A DNA stretch of 64,000 nucleotides from contig JAILKJ010000003.1 of assembly GCA_024693845.1 (NCBI GenBank), positions 1 through 64,000 on the forward strand. The letters run 5' to 3'. Both the position numbers and the translations under genes were made by a program. Origin of the DNA: Lachnospiraceae bacterium (GTDB lineage Bacteria; Bacillota; Clostridia; Lachnospirales; Lachnospiraceae). Positions 1 to 32,312 of this stretch are shown here, piece by piece; the first letter of the stretch is position 1, and the number at the start of each line of letters is the position of its first letter. Under the pieces are notes generated by a model. It saw only the letters and a program-made list of their open reading frames with translations, was not told the DNA's origin and searched no databases.

Positions 1-532
1 CGAGCTTATCAAGCAGATTGAAATCAATATTGATTACATTCTTATGCTGGTGAAGAAGTATCATGACAGCCACTGCGAGGATAAAGAGGTTCTTGTTACC
101 ATCAAGAAAGCGATTGCAGCAAGCCCTGAGCTTAGGAGTAAGAAAGCGCTTATCGAAAACTTCATTGCCGGAATTAATGATGTTGATGACATAAGGACAG
201 AATTGAACAACTATGTCGCTGCTCAGCGTGATCAGCAACTTATTATTATCATTGATGAAGAGAAGTTACAGGAAGAAGCTACAAGAAGATTCATGGAGTA
301 TGCCTTCCGTATCGGAGAAATTAAGACAACAGGTACAGACATTGATAAGATTCTTCCTCCGGTATCACGATTTGGTGGTGGAAATAGATCAGAGAAGAAG
401 GAACGCGTTATCGAAAGACTGAAGGCATATTTTGAGAAGTTCCATAATATTGGAGAACCCTTCAAGGCGGATAATAGTTATGAGAATGCAGCAGATAGCG
501 ATATAGGGGGCATAGATACAGATGAAGAATAG
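1..532 (+). CDS. hsdR: Type I restriction endonuclease subunit R, C-terminal part (truncated by window edge)
   Basis: The reading frame is open from base 2 and continues past the ORF-track start at 44, so this is the 3' end of a longer gene. The visible part of about 176 residues resembles the C-terminal helical region of EcoR124-type HsdR, with segments such as LRSKKALIENFIAGIND, FRIGEIKTTGTDIDKILPP and SRFGGGNRSEKKE. In this family the subunit carries the nuclease and translocase of a type I restriction system and works with HsdM and HsdS, which must lie outside the window. The stop overlaps the next gene by 11 bases, implying translational coupling. Identification is by remembered family sequence. 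Confidence 0.88.
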   Translation, partial: ELIKQIEINIDYILMLVKKYHDSHCEDKEVLVTIKKAIAASPELRSKKALIENFIAGINDVDDIRTELNNYVAAQRDQQLIIIIDEEKLQEEATRRFMEYAFRIGEIKTTGTDIDKILPPVSRFGGGNRSEKKERVIERLKAYFEKFHNIGEPFKADNSYENAADSDIGGIDTDEE

Positions 533-1946
533 GATTGAACACCCTAAGGTCTTTATTTCATATGCCTGGGGATCGCAGGAACATGATGAAAAGGTTATTG
601 CTTTAGCCACTAATCTTAAGAGTGATGGAGTGGATGTTGTTTTTGATAAATGGCAGTTAAAAGAAGGCAATGATACTTTCAAATTCATGGAAAAAAGTGT
701 TTTAGATGAAAGTATCACAAATGTCCTTATTCTAATAGACCCTACTTATGCAAAGAAGGCAAATGAAAGAGCTGGTGGCGTAGGTACAGAAACACAGATC
801 ATATCATCGGAGGTATACAATAAGGTAGAACAGAGAAAGTTTATTCCGGTCGTATTTGAGAGAGATGCCGAAGGTAATGTATGTAAGCCTCAGTACTTAA
901 AAGGACTTTTGCACTTCGATTTATCGTTGCCGGATACATATGATACTGAATACCAGAGAATGGTGCGTACACTATATGGAATAGATACGTATAAGGAACC
1001 GGAATTAGGGAATCCACCAGCATGGTTGGATGAGTCACCTAAGGTATCATATAAGTCGAGGGTGACAAGTGATTTTTTTCGCGGGACGGCAAGTGACGCC
1101 GTAAAGAAAAGTAAGTTTTCCGAGAATTTGGAAGATCTGAAAAAACAGATTTTGGATTATGAATATACTGAAAAAGAGGTTATTCCCTGTTATCTTGAAT
1201 TAATGCCATTTAGGGATGAATTCCTTCTTCTCGTTAAAAGTACTGAATACGTTCAAGAAGGATATAAACAGGTAGCTAAGTTCCTCGAAGAATTGATGTA
1301 TGAAATACGAAGGCAAAAAACAAATTATGCCAATTTGAAAGAGACATTTGTGCATGAGTGTTTCATATATGTGGTGGCTTATTATCTGAAAAAGAATGCA
1401 AATGATGCTCTAAGGTATATTCTAAATAAAACATATTTTGCAGGTACTTCCAATTTCAATCAAGAGGCTGATAGCTATAACTGCTTTTATTGTTATAACG
1501 ATGTCTTGGATAATGCTGTATGTAAAAGGGATAATAAAAAATATTATTGTGGAACCGCCGCGCTATGGATTGAAAACCTTAATGTTGAAGTTTGCAACAA
1601 AGACGAATTTGTTTCAGGAGATTTGTTTTGCTACAGCGCATCTTTTTTGATTTCCAATTATGAGAAGGGCTGGGCATGGTTCCCTTTAACTTACGTTTAT
1701 AACAGCGATGAGTATAGGGGATTGTTTGCAAATTATTCAAAAAGGTTAGTCTCTAAGGAACATTTGGAAGAAATGATGTTCGTTCTCAACTTTGAATCAA
1801 TTAATGAATTTAAAGAACAATACAAGAACGTGGAAGAGAAGTTCCGTAAAGGTGACCTAAAAGAGTATCGATATAATAGTGGCTTTGAAACAGCCAAAAG
1901 TTTTTGGGATTATATGAAGTCGGAAGATCTTGGTATAAGAAACTAA
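522..1946 (+). CDS. SEFIR (TIR-like) domain protein, possible defence effector
   Basis: The protein has 474 residues. The N-terminus (about residues 8 to 150) has the look of a SEFIR/TIR fold: PKVFISYAWGSQEHDE, then DGVDVVFDKWQLKEGND and NVLILIDPTYAKKA. The remaining 300 or so residues are unassigned, rich in Tyr, Phe and charged residues with a few Cys (YNCFYCYND). No signal peptide or membrane segment is visible. The ATG at 522 follows AGGGGG and lies inside the last codons of hsdR, so the two are co-translated. SEFIR and TIR domains in bacteria are often effector or NAD-consuming modules in anti-phage systems; that role here is inference from position in a restriction locus. Confidence 0.75.
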   Translation: MKNRIEHPKVFISYAWGSQEHDEKVIALATNLKSDGVDVVFDKWQLKEGNDTFKFMEKSVLDESITNVLILIDPTYAKKANERAGGVGTETQIISSEVYNKVEQRKFIPVVFERDAEGNVCKPQYLKGLLHFDLSLPDTYDTEYQRMVRTLYGIDTYKEPELGNPPAWLDESPKVSYKSRVTSDFFRGTASDAVKKSKFSENLEDLKKQILDYEYTEKEVIPCYLELMPFRDEFLLLVKSTEYVQEGYKQVAKFLEELMYEIRRQKTNYANLKETFVHECFIYVVAYYLKKNANDALRYILNKTYFAGTSNFNQEADSYNCFYCYNDVLDNAVCKRDNKKYYCGTAALWIENLNVEVCNKDEFVSGDLFCYSASFLISNYEKGWAWFPLTYVYNSDEYRGLFANYSKRLVSKEHLEEMMFVLNFESINEFKEQYKNVEEKFRKGDLKEYRYNSGFETAKSFWDYMKSEDLGIRN

Positions 1947-2201
1947 AATATAGCAAGGTGACGAGGTCACCGCAGTATGATCCTGGTGTAAGCGAAGGAT
2001 TGAATATTGTTGCGAAATAACATCGGTATCTGGGAGAGTGCCGGCTGTGCCGGCCACGCAAAAAATAATTAATGGACAAGGGCCAGATCAGTAGCGTGTT
2101 ACTCTCCCTTATGCCCTTTTGCTATCTAAGTCATTGAACGTCGTTGATCTGACGCAATTAATAAAAAACCTGATAATCCAGGGGATTCAGCTGCTGTCGA
2201 A

Positions 2202-2368
2202 AGTACGACGCATCGTGTCGTACTACGACGCGATCTTTCCAAAACCCGCATAAACAGGCACTTTTTAATTCGAAACTACGTCGTATATCTATATCCCCGG
2301 TCGCACACTACGTCGTAATAAAAATTCTGACCTTATAAGGGGTTTTTATTACGTCGTATTACGTCGTA
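2202..2368. repeat. TACGTCGTA repeat cluster with inverted repeats
   Basis: Four exact direct copies of TACGTCGTA start at 2277, 2309, 2350 and 2360. The opposite orientation (TACGACG) occurs at 2204 and 2224. AGTACGAC (2202-2209) and GTCGTACT (2217-2224) form a perfect 8-bp inverted repeat with a 7-base gap. CGTAATAAAAA (2314-2324) pairs with TTTTTATTACG (2343-2353). Such clustered sites usually bind a sequence-specific protein (iteron, parS, operator or recombinase arm site). Which one applies here is unknown. Confidence 0.7.
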
Positions 2369-2519
2369 GTTTTATATTTGGGATAATTTTCGGAGCTATC
2401 TAAGGGTGATCTGGGAGCTATCCGGACACGTCTTATTTATCCTGTTCGTGTAACTGTTTTCGCTCGTCGAAAAAGTTAGAACAGGAATCGGTGGACAAAA
2501 TGCATGCTCCCATGAAAAT

Positions 2520-2800
2520 AAAATGCCCTTAAATGGTCCACAAAAAGACCATTTATCCTGATATTAACCCATCTTTGGAACTTATAGGGGTGATTTATTT
2601 GAAAAGGCGCCCCTAATATGTCCTTGAAACAACCATATAAAGTACATTTATACAAAACACGCCCATCTTTGGTATTTAATGGGGTCAATTATTGAAAAAA
2701 ATATATAATAAACCCACAAAACGTCCAAAGAAAGTCCATTTATTAAAAAAATCGCCCCAAATGTGGCCTGATTTTATCCATGAAAAGTCCAATAAAACCC
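2520..2800. repeat. Three degenerate direct repeats of about 93 bp
   Basis: The block AAAGWMCATTTAT recurs at about 2544, 2639 and 2731. CCCATCTTTGG recurs at 2568 and 2662, each followed by a similar AT-rich run and GGGGT. Spacing is 92 to 95 bp. Homology decays in the third unit. The repeats end just before the promoter at 2805. Confidence 0.5.
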
Positions 2801-2804
2801 GTGG

Positions 2805-2833
2805 TTGACGCATTTCTGATAGAGTGGTATACT
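2805..2833 (+). promoter_or_regulatory. Strong sigma-A type promoter
   Basis: TTGACG (2805-2810), a 17-base spacer and TATACT (2828-2833). The predicted transcript starts near 2840 and runs through about 420 non-coding bases before the first gene at 3261. Confidence 0.8.
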
Positions 2834-2839
2834 ATTATT

Positions 2840-3240
2840 AGGAGGATATTGGTTCAATGTGACAGTTTGAGGCAGATGTGACGTCACTTTGGATTCAGTA
2901 GTAAAGATCAGGGCGATCTGATGCCCCGCTGTTTATAACAGTGGACGTTATCAATCACTGTCAGATTGATAATGATCGCGAATGAAGTAGTTAATGCGGT
3001 TTCATCTCCGGATATGCCGCGAGCGGATTGAGTGATAGTTATTCACTCTTAATGGGAAATATGATGCTTTTGCATATAAGATGATGTCGGATTATAAGAT
3101 CCGTACCTAACCATCCGAACCGGAGCAAACAGATTAAAGAGATCCAGATTCAAGTGATAAAGACTTGGGTTTAGATTTAGAACCAATCTGTTTGCTATAC
3201 GGTTTAATCGGGTGGTTCTTTTTATTTTTGCCCGATTCAA
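2840..3240 (+). ncRNA. Hairpin-rich leader or stand-alone structured RNA
   Basis: Downstream of the promoter at 2805 I can fold a series of local hairpins by eye: ATCAG/CTGAT (2907-2922), CTGTT/AACAG (2929-2941), TTATCAATC/GATTGATAA (2948-2972, 9 bp), GAGTGA/TCACTC (3030-3048), CGGAT/ATCCG (3088-3103), AGCAAACAGATT/AATCTGTTTGCT (3124-3196, 12 bp perfect with an inner CAAGT/ACTTG hairpin) and AATCGGG/CCCGATT (3206-3237). There is no convincing ORF inside. It could be a long regulatory 5' leader of the DUF6462 gene or a separate small RNA. I recognise no known RNA family. Confidence 0.5.
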
Positions 3241-3260
3241 TATGGATTGGAGAAAAAGTT

Positions 3261-3497
3261 ATGCCCAAAGAAAGAGCAGAGATTAATGTAGATACCCTGA
3301 AAAGATTGGTAAATTCGGGGCAGAAAAAATTTGTGAGATATGATGAAGGAAAGGTTTTATACTCCATGGGATTGCACTCCTTTCAGGAACTTGCCAAGGA
3401 GGCAGGGGCTGTTTACCACGTAAAACGTATGGTACTTGTAAATACGGAAAAGATTGATAGCTATCTTGAGAATTTTTGTGATCCAACGGATGACTAA
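3261..3497 (+). CDS. DUF6462-type small protein of integrative elements
   Basis: The protein has 78 residues from the ATG at 3261, preceded by GGAGAAAAAGTT. The ORF track begins at 3165, but that extension lacks a ribosome site and runs through the hairpin sequence. Segments such as FVRYDEGKVLYSMGLHSF and LVNTEKIDSYLE match what I remember of DUF6462 proteins. These are small, possibly DNA-binding, and usually sit next to tyrosine integrases in Lachnospiraceae elements. A role as an excisionase-like factor or element regulator is inference from that context. The stop codon lies at the start of a large inverted repeat. Confidence 0.7.
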   Translation: MPKERAEINVDTLKRLVNSGQKKFVRYDEGKVLYSMGLHSFQELAKEAGAVYHVKRMVLVNTEKIDSYLENFCDPTDD

Positions 3498-3648
3498 AGT
3501 GATTATTTTAACTTTACGGTGAACTATGACCGCAGTTCAGCGCATCTTGACCACACATGAGAGATTTAGCTACAACCTGCATATGGGAGCATGTTCTATG
3601 TGTGAAATACGCACCAGCATATGCGCTGAATTTGCGGATAATCACTTT
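3496..3648. other. 153-bp nested inverted repeat (cruciform or structured RNA)
   Basis: Outer arms AAAGTGATTAT (3496-3506) and ATAATCACTTT (3638-3648) are perfect complements. Inside them CGCA-g-TTCAGCGCAT (3531-3545) pairs with ATGCGCTGAA-tt-TGCG (3621-3636), and CACACAT (3552-3558) pairs with ATGTGTG (3598-3604). The left arm includes the stop of the DUF6462 gene. No U-tract follows, so it is not a standard terminator. It could be a small RNA, an oriT-like hairpin or a recombination site. Confidence 0.7.
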
Positions 3649-3693
3649 AATATGTAGTTTATTGATAATTAACTGAAAAAAGGAGATAAACAT

Positions 3694-4095
3694 ATGAGAA
3701 AACTTAATAAAACAGAAAAAAGTGAAGCAACAAAGCTGCTTTCGATGTTAGCTGTGACACTTAGAATTATCTATCACTTGATCATAGAAGCAGAGAAGTG
3801 TGCTAACCAGATGCAACGTTTCGAAATCAGAACAAAACTGTTGGTCGGCACACTTTGCCAAGCGAATGCTCTTATCCAAAAAGCAAAACGAAAGCTATTC
3901 GAAAGTGTATACCATCAGGTGGATAATGCACATATATACTCAGTGGATCTTGACGATATCATGTGTAAGATGAACTATTCAGAGGCATACCAGCATATCT
4001 ACAAATTAAGGATGGATATTGTAGATGCTGCTGTCAAAGATTTGGCAGATGGAATGTATCAGTTTATCACAGAGGATGAATTTAAAAACAAGTAA
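3694..4095 (+). CDS. Hypothetical small helical protein of the mobile element
   Basis: The protein has 133 residues with a good ribosome site (AAAGGAGATAAACAT before ATG). I do not recognise the family. The sequence is mainly helical and basic in its first half (MRKLNKTEKSEATK, later RFEIRTKLLVG), with several Cys residues that do not form a clear metal site. There is no signal peptide or clear membrane helix. It lies between the DUF6462 gene and the RHH gene, so it is probably part of the same element. No function is proposed. Confidence 0.65.
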   Translation: MRKLNKTEKSEATKLLSMLAVTLRIIYHLIIEAEKCANQMQRFEIRTKLLVGTLCQANALIQKAKRKLFESVYHQVDNAHIYSVDLDDIMCKMNYSEAYQHIYKLRMDIVDAAVKDLADGMYQFITEDEFKNK

Positions 4096-4140
4096 AAGTC
4101 TTATATGGATATAAAAGGTGAGGAATGGCAGGTATTACAC

Positions 4141-4175
4141 TTGAATTTTGGAACCCATTATTATATACTATGGGT
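4141..4175 (+). promoter_or_regulatory. Promoter of the RHH gene with overlapping palindromic operator
   Basis: TTGAAT (4141-4146), a 17-base spacer and TATACT (4164-4169). An inverted repeat ACCCAT (4153-4158) and ATGGGT (4170-4175) brackets the -10 box. That is where an autoregulating ribbon-helix-helix repressor would be expected to bind; the autoregulation is inference. Confidence 0.6.
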
Positions 4176-4198
4176 GATAGACAAAAGCGAGGTGCAAG

Positions 4199-4378
4199 AT
4201 GCCAAGAAGAGAAGGCGCAGGAAGACCTAAAATGGACGATCCCAAAGCGAATAAAGTCAGTGTGAGACTCTCCAATGAGGATCTTAAGCGCTTCGAGGCT
4301 TATGCAGAAAAGCATGGTCTATCCAAAGCAGATACCCTTAGGAAAGCTGTAGAAGAGCTTCTTAAAAGGGACAAGTAA
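4199..4378 (+). CDS. Ribbon-helix-helix (CopG/Arc-like) regulator, 59 aa
   Basis: This gene is too short for the ORF track. Translation from the ATG at 4199 gives MPRREGAGRPKMDDPKANKV, then VSVRLSNEDLKRFEAYAEKH and a second helix containing LSKADTLRKAVEELL. This is the beta-strand plus two-helix layout of RHH DNA-binding proteins, with a basic N-terminal tail. GAGGTG precedes the start. It sits 35 bases before the integrase and behind its own promoter, so it is a plausible element repressor or integrase regulator. The target operator is inferred from the inverted repeat at its promoter. Confidence 0.75.
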   Translation: MPRREGAGRPKMDDPKANKVSVRLSNEDLKRFEAYAEKHGLSKADTLRKAVEELLKRDK

Positions 4379-4413
4379 ACCGTGCTGTTCCTCACAGAAA
4401 GTGAGGAGAAAGG

Positions 4414-5643
4414 ATGGCAAAAGAAAAAAGAAAAGATAAAAAAGGCTACATGCTAAGGATCGGTGAATGTCAGCGAACTGATGGAAGGTATTCCTATTCT
4501 TATACAGATAGGTGGAAAAAACGCCATACTGTGTATGCGAATTCGTTGGTAGATCTTAGGGAAAAGGAAAAGCAGATCCGTATGGATATCGATTCGGGAA
4601 TCAATCCGAATGCTGCAAAAGCCTTGACCGTCAATGATATGTTTGACAGGTTCATCGAGCGCAAGTATGATATCAAGCCTACTACCAGAGCCAAGTATTA
4701 CTTTGATTTTGATCATTATGTGAGAGAGGGCTTTGGAAAACAGAAGATTGGTGAAGTTCATTATTCCGATGTAAAGAAATTTTATTACGATCTTCTCGAA
4801 GGGAATAAACTGAAACCCGGAACACTCGACGGGGTGAACACGGTCCTGCATCAGACATTTCAGCTTGCAGTAAGAGATGAAGTAATCAGGGGTAATCCGA
4901 CAGAGGGAGTCATGGCTGAGATCAAAAGAAGTGATCTTTGGGTTAAACCGAAGAGACATGCCTTGACTTTGCCGGAACAGAAAGAACTGATGGACTATAT
5001 CAGTGATAATCATATGTTCAAGGGCTGGGTCCCTCTCATAACAGTTCTTTTGGGAACGGGAATGCGTATTGGAGAATGCTTGGGACTGCGTTGGGAAGAC
5101 ATCGATCTCGATAAAAGGCTCATCCGCGTAGACCACAATCTTGTGGAATACAAGGATAAGAAGCTCGGCAAGATGGTTCACAGCATCCAGAGTACAAAAA
5201 CGAGAGCAGGTGTGAGAGTCATTCCTATGATTGATGAAGTGTATGAAGCCTTTATCACTGAGTTTGAGTTCCAGCAGTGTACCGGCTTCTGTACGGAAGA
5301 GATCAGCGGATATTTGGGATTCATCTTCGCTACCACAGACGGGAATGTTATGAAGAGATCCGCTGTCAACAATGCAATCCACAGAATCGTTGATATTCAT
5401 AACGAAGAGGAAAACAAGAAGGCAAAAGCTGAGAAGAGAGAACCGAATCTCATTCCGCAGTTTACGGCCCACCAGCTTAGGCATACGTTCTGTACGAGGT
5501 TCTGTGAAAATGAAACTAACTTGAAAGTGATCCAGGAAATCATGGGACATGCAGACATCACGACGACTATGGATATCTATGCCGAGGCTTCTCCCGAGAA
5601 GAAACAGGAGATCATGACCAATCTGCAGGGAAAGATTTTTTGA
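4414..5643 (+). CDS. Tyrosine recombinase / integrase of the element
   Basis: The protein has 409 residues and starts after GTGAGGAGAAAGG. The core-binding SAM-like region (about 68 to 150) contains LTVNDMFDRFIERKYDIKP. The catalytic domain shows GTGMRIGECLGLRW with the first Arg near residue 217, HQLRHTF (His353, Arg356), MGHADI (His379) and the Tyr nucleophile near 389 in MDIYAE. All catalytic residues appear intact. The length and the N-terminal arm-binding segment resemble Tn916-type integrases. It lies last in the element, pointing outward, so the attachment site should be in the following 250 bases. Confidence 0.93.
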   Translation: MAKEKRKDKKGYMLRIGECQRTDGRYSYSYTDRWKKRHTVYANSLVDLREKEKQIRMDIDSGINPNAAKALTVNDMFDRFIERKYDIKPTTRAKYYFDFDHYVREGFGKQKIGEVHYSDVKKFYYDLLEGNKLKPGTLDGVNTVLHQTFQLAVRDEVIRGNPTEGVMAEIKRSDLWVKPKRHALTLPEQKELMDYISDNHMFKGWVPLITVLLGTGMRIGECLGLRWEDIDLDKRLIRVDHNLVEYKDKKLGKMVHSIQSTKTRAGVRVIPMIDEVYEAFITEFEFQQCTGFCTEEISGYLGFIFATTDGNVMKRSAVNNAIHRIVDIHNEEENKKAKAEKREPNLIPQFTAHQLRHTFCTRFCENETNLKVIQEIMGHADITTTMDIYAEASPEKKQEIMTNLQGKIF

Positions 5644-32175: not shown

Positions 32176-32312
32176 TACCCTGAGAAGAGTAAACCAAAAG
32201 AAAAGAGCTCCGCATGCTCGCATGCAGGAGCTCCTTTTCTTTTCGGTTTATTCGGCGAAGCCGAACATCCGGTGAACGCGAAGCGTTTACCGGATGCTCT
32301 TCTCATGGTAAG
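32174..32312. other. Branched inverted repeat (four-way structure) after the tRNA
   Basis: Outer arms CTTACC-c-TGAGAAGAG (32174-32189) and CTCTTCTCA-t-GGTAAG (32297-32312) are perfectly complementary. Inside are a long hairpin AAAAGAAAAGAGCTCC...GGAGCTC-TTTTCTTTT, TTCGGC-gaa-GCCGAA, and CATCCGGT...ACCGGATG with an inner ACGC/GCGT. The right outer arm overlaps the last codons of the hybrid kinase gene and the left one the tRNA end. It may act as a two-way terminator, or be a MITE-like repeat. Confidence 0.75.

Follow-up and report, generated by a model that had tools for sequence, protein, structure and literature searches.

A nested inverted repeat at the DUF6462 stop codon near the integrase end of a putative integrative element from a Lachnospiraceae bacterium

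Tn916 carries canT, a 452-nt cis-acting RNA antiterminator located between orf8 and xis, and also has terminators, one of which insulates the element's genes from host transcription (PMC11658703). In addition, Tn916 replicates by the rolling-circle mode and has an sso and an oriT (PMC11658703). We analyzed a 64-kb stretch of DNA from a Lachnospiraceae bacterium (hereafter, the window) in which a hairpin lies at the stop codon of a DUF6462 gene. With canT, this hairpin shares the character of a structured RNA near the xis-int end and the company of a Tn916-type integrase; it differs from canT in that it lies downstream of the gene in the xis position, is only 155 nt long and has no established sequence similarity to it.

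Architecture of the hairpin and its setting

The window starts at the first base of its contig, and the contig does not include the left part of the element. The left 5.65 kb has a GC content of 39%, against 48% for the whole window, and is thus foreign by composition. It opens with the end of a type I restriction R subunit and a SEFIR-domain protein, which matches the bSEFIR defence model, followed by DUF6462, the hairpin, ORF133, a ribbon-helix-helix (RHH) protein and a Tn916-type tyrosine integrase. From this gene content and composition, we infer that the 5.65 kb belongs to an integrative element carrying defence cargo and forms its integrase end. The start codon and ribosome-binding site of DUF6462 were read from the sequence. 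The features are as follows.

3261-3497, + strand: DUF6462 gene, 78 aa (Pfam PF20063, E 3e-26), in the xis position of the module
3495-3506, + strand: outer arm, 5' side, TAAAGTGATTAT; it begins with the DUF6462 stop codon
3507-3529, + strand: one-sided bulge of 23 nt, which separates the outer stem from the middle stem on the 5' side and has no 3' counterpart
3530-3545, + strand: middle arm, 5' side, CCGCA-g-TTCAGCGCAT
3552-3558, + strand: inner arm, 5' side, CACACAT, 7 bp
3559-3597, + strand: apical loop, 39 nt
3598-3604, + strand: inner arm, 3' side, ATGTGTG, 7 bp
3621-3637, + strand: middle arm, 3' side, ATGCGCTGAA-tt-TGCGG
3638-3649, + strand: outer arm, 3' side, ATAATCACTTTA, 12/12 complementary to TAAAGTGATTAT
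3694-4095, + strand: ORF133 (133 codons), an orphan gene with a strong ribosome-binding site, AGGAG
4141-4169, + strand: promoter of the RHH-integrase operon, with an equivalent promoter in relatives
4199-4378, + strand: RHH protein (Pfam RHH_1)
4414-5643, + strand: Tn916-type tyrosine integrase (Pfam PF00589, PF02920)

The nested inverted repeat spans 3495-3649 (155 bases), with genes of a mobile genetic element on either side. A previous reading of the letters and open reading frames (the sequence-only reading) had detected the repeat and assigned it to 3496-3648, an extent that falls two bases short; its 7-bp inner arms and 39-base loop hold, and the outer and middle arms, given as 11 and 14, are really 12 and 15. 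It was right to start the structure at the DUF6462 stop codon, since the outer 5' arm begins with that TAA (3495-3497). The middle stem consists of 15 pairs (5 + 10 bp) flanking a 1x2 internal loop, and all the defining stems are Watson-Crick. When the bulge is ignored, the outer and middle arms make up one near-perfect repeat of 27 pairs, which stops at TA on both sides (TA..TA). In the predicted fold, the bulge can pair locally with the start of the middle arm (CGG..CCG) to give a small hairpin.

Structure prediction, which the sequence-only reading had proposed as a check, yielded a stable fold for 3480-3665, with -50.1 kcal/mol as RNA (z -3.2) and -28.1 kcal/mol as DNA (z -3.8), and none of 200 shuffles was equally stable in either case. 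Perfect 12-bp inverted repeats with a spacer of at most 140 occur only twice in the 64 kb, namely, in the hairpin and at 3124-3196, within a stem that immediately precedes DUF6462. None of 60 Markov-simulated 64-kb windows contained a 12-bp repeat enclosing a 10-bp one. In a sliding-window scan, the hairpin ranks 10th in the window for excess stability. The nested inverted repeat is therefore real and not a product of chance, yet it is not extreme. The most over-stable place of the window is 32176-32312 (z -10.8), a single-copy sequence in the genome that follows a tRNA gene directly and in which an outer stem surrounds several hairpins.

Comparison with related integration modules

The integration module has a conserved order of DUF6462, promoter, RHH and Tn916-type integrase. 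Our DUF6462 search returned 53 loci in genome contigs and one viral contig, plus loci in family genomes. The RHH start could be scored in 37 loci, some of which are near-duplicates of one another; in 35 of them, the DUF6462 stop lies 45-147 bp before RHH, and the gap mostly holds a promoter of the form TTGACTTTTTGTCATACAATAAGTATAAT. In this window, the same distance reaches 702 bp because the hairpin and ORF133 sit in between. Given the short gap of the relatives and the position of the equivalent promoter (4141-4169) after ORF133, the sequence comparison indicates that the hairpin and ORF133 were added to this element only. As this promoter equivalent is downstream of the extra segment, the segment belongs to the DUF6462 side of the module. 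Two other loci (L050 and L051) have an unrelated 1.2-kb addition at the same position, between DUF6462 and RHH. A very stable fold follows DUF6462 in L030 and L034 (z -6.6 and -8.7, respectively), two elements that have seemingly lost the RHH gene.

A covariance model built from the single hairpin sequence recovered only the hairpin itself from 348 family and 256 order genomes. The sequence-only reading had proposed looking for the same hairpin beside other DUF6462 or RHH genes, and the model gave no credible match in 38 related loci; the arms, whose conservation or compensatory change in relatives was to be the test, are missing altogether from relatives that have the DUF6462-RHH-integrase module. 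No relatives were found by DNA similarity and exact-arm patterns in phages, plasmids and IMG/VR viral contigs; five viral contigs showing the TTCAGCGCAT..ATGCGCTGAA pattern are unlike the hairpin in sequence and fold. Rfam returned no match to the hairpin at gathering or relaxed thresholds. A genome search detected no second copy in the hairpin's own genome, where single-arm pattern matches are no more numerous than in other family genomes. Among seven same-genus genomes, only the genome of origin matched the module DNA and the other six did not, and a search with the right flank revealed no clean empty site in the genus. With no homologue in related elements, the structure is not among the conserved components of the module.

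The second component of the addition, ORF133, resembles genes in codon use, but in no frame other than its own (codon z 4.2). It had no known family, defence-gene or solved-structure match and no homologue in any collection searched, a weak genome match (E 0.004) with one internal stop not being accepted as a homologue. An AlphaFold model obtained without an alignment depicts a helical protein at low confidence (pLDDT 64, pTM 0.35).

Candidate roles of the hairpin

The sequence-only reading had concluded that the structure was not a simple terminator, and we agree. No T-run extends past either palindrome end and no terminator match was found, on either strand; without a U-tract, the hairpin is no intrinsic terminator. 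The same reading had mentioned oriT, retron-like or recombination systems, none of which found support. A retron msr-msd was rejected, as no reverse transcriptase is adjacent and the hairpin is followed by ORF133, which has no family match, then by RHH and the integrase. An integron attC site was likewise rejected, since the core motifs RYYYAAC / GTTRRRY are absent from the palindrome ends; the integrase carries a Tn916-type DNA-binding domain and scores far under the integron integrase cut-off. For an oriT, no relaxase was found among the genes at 44-5643, the left part of the element being off the contig. The last of its suggestions, mRNA regulation, is the one that we favor, in a modest form.

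We tentatively read the hairpin as an intercistronic RNA element that insulates or processes the DUF6462-ORF133 message, an assignment to which we give slightly less than an even chance. We prefer it because the flanking genes lie on the same strand with no promoter match between them and because the DUF6462 stop codon forms the base of the stem. The predicted fold keeps the ribosome-binding site of ORF133 out of the hairpin, with weak pairing at most. Further points in its favor are that the RNA fold beats all the shuffles, that the codons of ORF133 are gene-like in a single frame and that the extra segment is on the DUF6462 side of the module, upstream of the equivalent promoter. On the other hand, with no homologue in the family and order genomes, plasmids and phages, there is no covariation; stems made only of Watson-Crick pairs suit a DNA palindrome equally well, and folding is no less significant as DNA than as RNA. 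Co-transcription, folding in vivo and processing are what we infer, and so is the step from fold to function. In such a scheme, about 34 pairs in nested stems would fold in the mRNA from the DUF6462 stop codon onward, and the fold would end 44 nt ahead of the ORF133 start codon. Without a U-tract, the hairpin would leave transcription unterminated. It could shield the DUF6462 message from exonucleases by capping its 3' side, and the stem might supply a double-stranded cleavage site of the RNase III type. One transcript could thereby give differing expression levels for the gene in the excisionase position and for the added orphan ORF133. The hairpin would have arrived together with ORF133 or next to it, as an addition to one element. 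We consider it very doubtful that the two form a functional pair, in which translation of DUF6462 would open the stem at whose base its stop codon lies and so decide what becomes of the downstream message, linking the control of excision to a small helical protein.

The main rival, which we regard as unlikely although it deserves more weight than the other alternatives, is that the hairpin is a functionless MITE-like insertion or other palindromic debris. Such an insertion would have occurred exactly at the DUF6462 stop codon, which would stay TAA without the insert. The terminal inverted repeats of a MITE are present, with 27 near-perfect pairs over some 155 bp once the one-sided 23 nt is ignored; TA stands exactly at both ends, as expected of a TA target duplication, the segment is missing from relatives, and the element that harbors it is foreign by composition (39% GC against 48%). 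However, the several copies that define a MITE were found neither in the hairpin's own genome, where it is single copy and where single-arm matches are no commoner than in other family genomes, nor in the family and order genomes scanned. Moreover, the inner 7-bp stem and the one-sided bulge are atypical, and accidental TA ends have a sizeable chance.

A rather improbable alternative is that the repeat acts at the DNA level, as single-stranded or cruciform DNA, in a single-strand origin, a transfer origin or a binding site for DUF6462 or RHH. The significant DNA fold, neighboring genes that are DNA-binding by family or position and the precedent of Tn916, a rolling-circle element with sso and oriT (PMC11658703), are consistent with this alternative, but the visible part of the element, whose left part is off the contig, has no relaxase or replication gene. 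The hairpin is also unlike any plasmid or phage record searched, including rolling-circle plasmids with known ssos. The integrase promoter and the rest of the element contain no further copy of its arm sequence, and the hairpin is missing from relatives with the same DUF6462, RHH and integrase. As for chance complementarity in AT-rich DNA, folding energy alone, which puts the hairpin merely 10th in 64 kb, would accommodate it; the nested arrangement, which none of the 60 simulated windows reproduced, and the shuffles, 0 of 200 as stable for RNA or DNA, make it extremely improbable.

Other structured regions and likeness to known systems

A stretch of ∼390 nt upstream of DUF6462 (2842-3232), free of ORFs, is far more structured than the 3495-3649 hairpin (z -6.4). 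It is preceded by a promoter match, TTGACG-17-TATACT, at 2805-2833 on the + strand, which is among the best of the scanned region, and its last part, immediately ahead of DUF6462, is a long stem followed by a U-tract. A search of 325 order genomes turned up no sequence homologue of 2842-3255. Strong stems with U-tracts, of differing sequences, also stand directly before DUF6462 in many relatives (L012, L031, L038, L039, L042, L044, L054 and others). The recurrence of these stems suggests that transcription of upstream cargo is kept out of the module and that expression of DUF6462 may require readthrough. Within the region, TTTAATCGGG (3203-3212) has two potential pairing partners, one upstream, within the long stem, and the other, CCCGATTCAA (3231-3240), downstream; this alternative pairing across 3203-3240 is a possible terminator/antiterminator switch before DUF6462. 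Farther upstream, between the SEFIR gene and DUF6462, ∼0.5 kb of noncoding DNA (2260-2750) consists of degenerate repeats, with several TACGTCGTA units at 2277-2377 and repeats spaced 92-95 bp at 2518-2743. At the other end of the module, a short hairpin (4389-4407) lies over or beside the integrase ribosome-binding site, directly before the start codon. Many relatives have a hairpin at the integrase start made of different bases, such as TCCTCAC/GTGAGGA, CTCACC/GGTGAG and CCTTCT/AGAAGG; an automatic alignment of the integrase leaders gave no consensus structure, and covariation was not confirmed.

By itself, the 3495-3649 hairpin is of little consequence, being another nonconserved intergenic hairpin: it is genuine but of an ordinary kind, and the role proposed for it is modest. 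Its wider interest is that the DUF6462-RHH-integrase module, which is widespread in Clostridia, tolerates cassettes between the gene in the xis position and the integrase promoter. The RNA features that recur in the module are the stable stems or long-stem terminators before DUF6462 and the hairpin at the integrase ribosome-binding site.

Among described systems, canT of Tn916 would have its counterpart in the region at 2842-3232, which resembles it in position, size and orientation, and not in the 3495-3649 hairpin; the parallel is positional only (PMC11658703). Bacterial MITEs and palindromic interspersed repeats share with the 3495-3649 hairpin long near-perfect terminal inverted repeats, the 155-bp size, TA ends and absence from the equivalent place in relatives; unlike MITEs, the hairpin is single copy, and neither a parental transposase nor sister copies were found. 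Intercistronic processing or stabilizing hairpins, such as RNase III-type sites and 3'-end caps, differ from this hairpin in that it is known from sequence alone and is unconserved in related modules, whereas they share with it a stable long-range stem between same-strand genes, positioned directly at the stop codon and lacking a U-tract.
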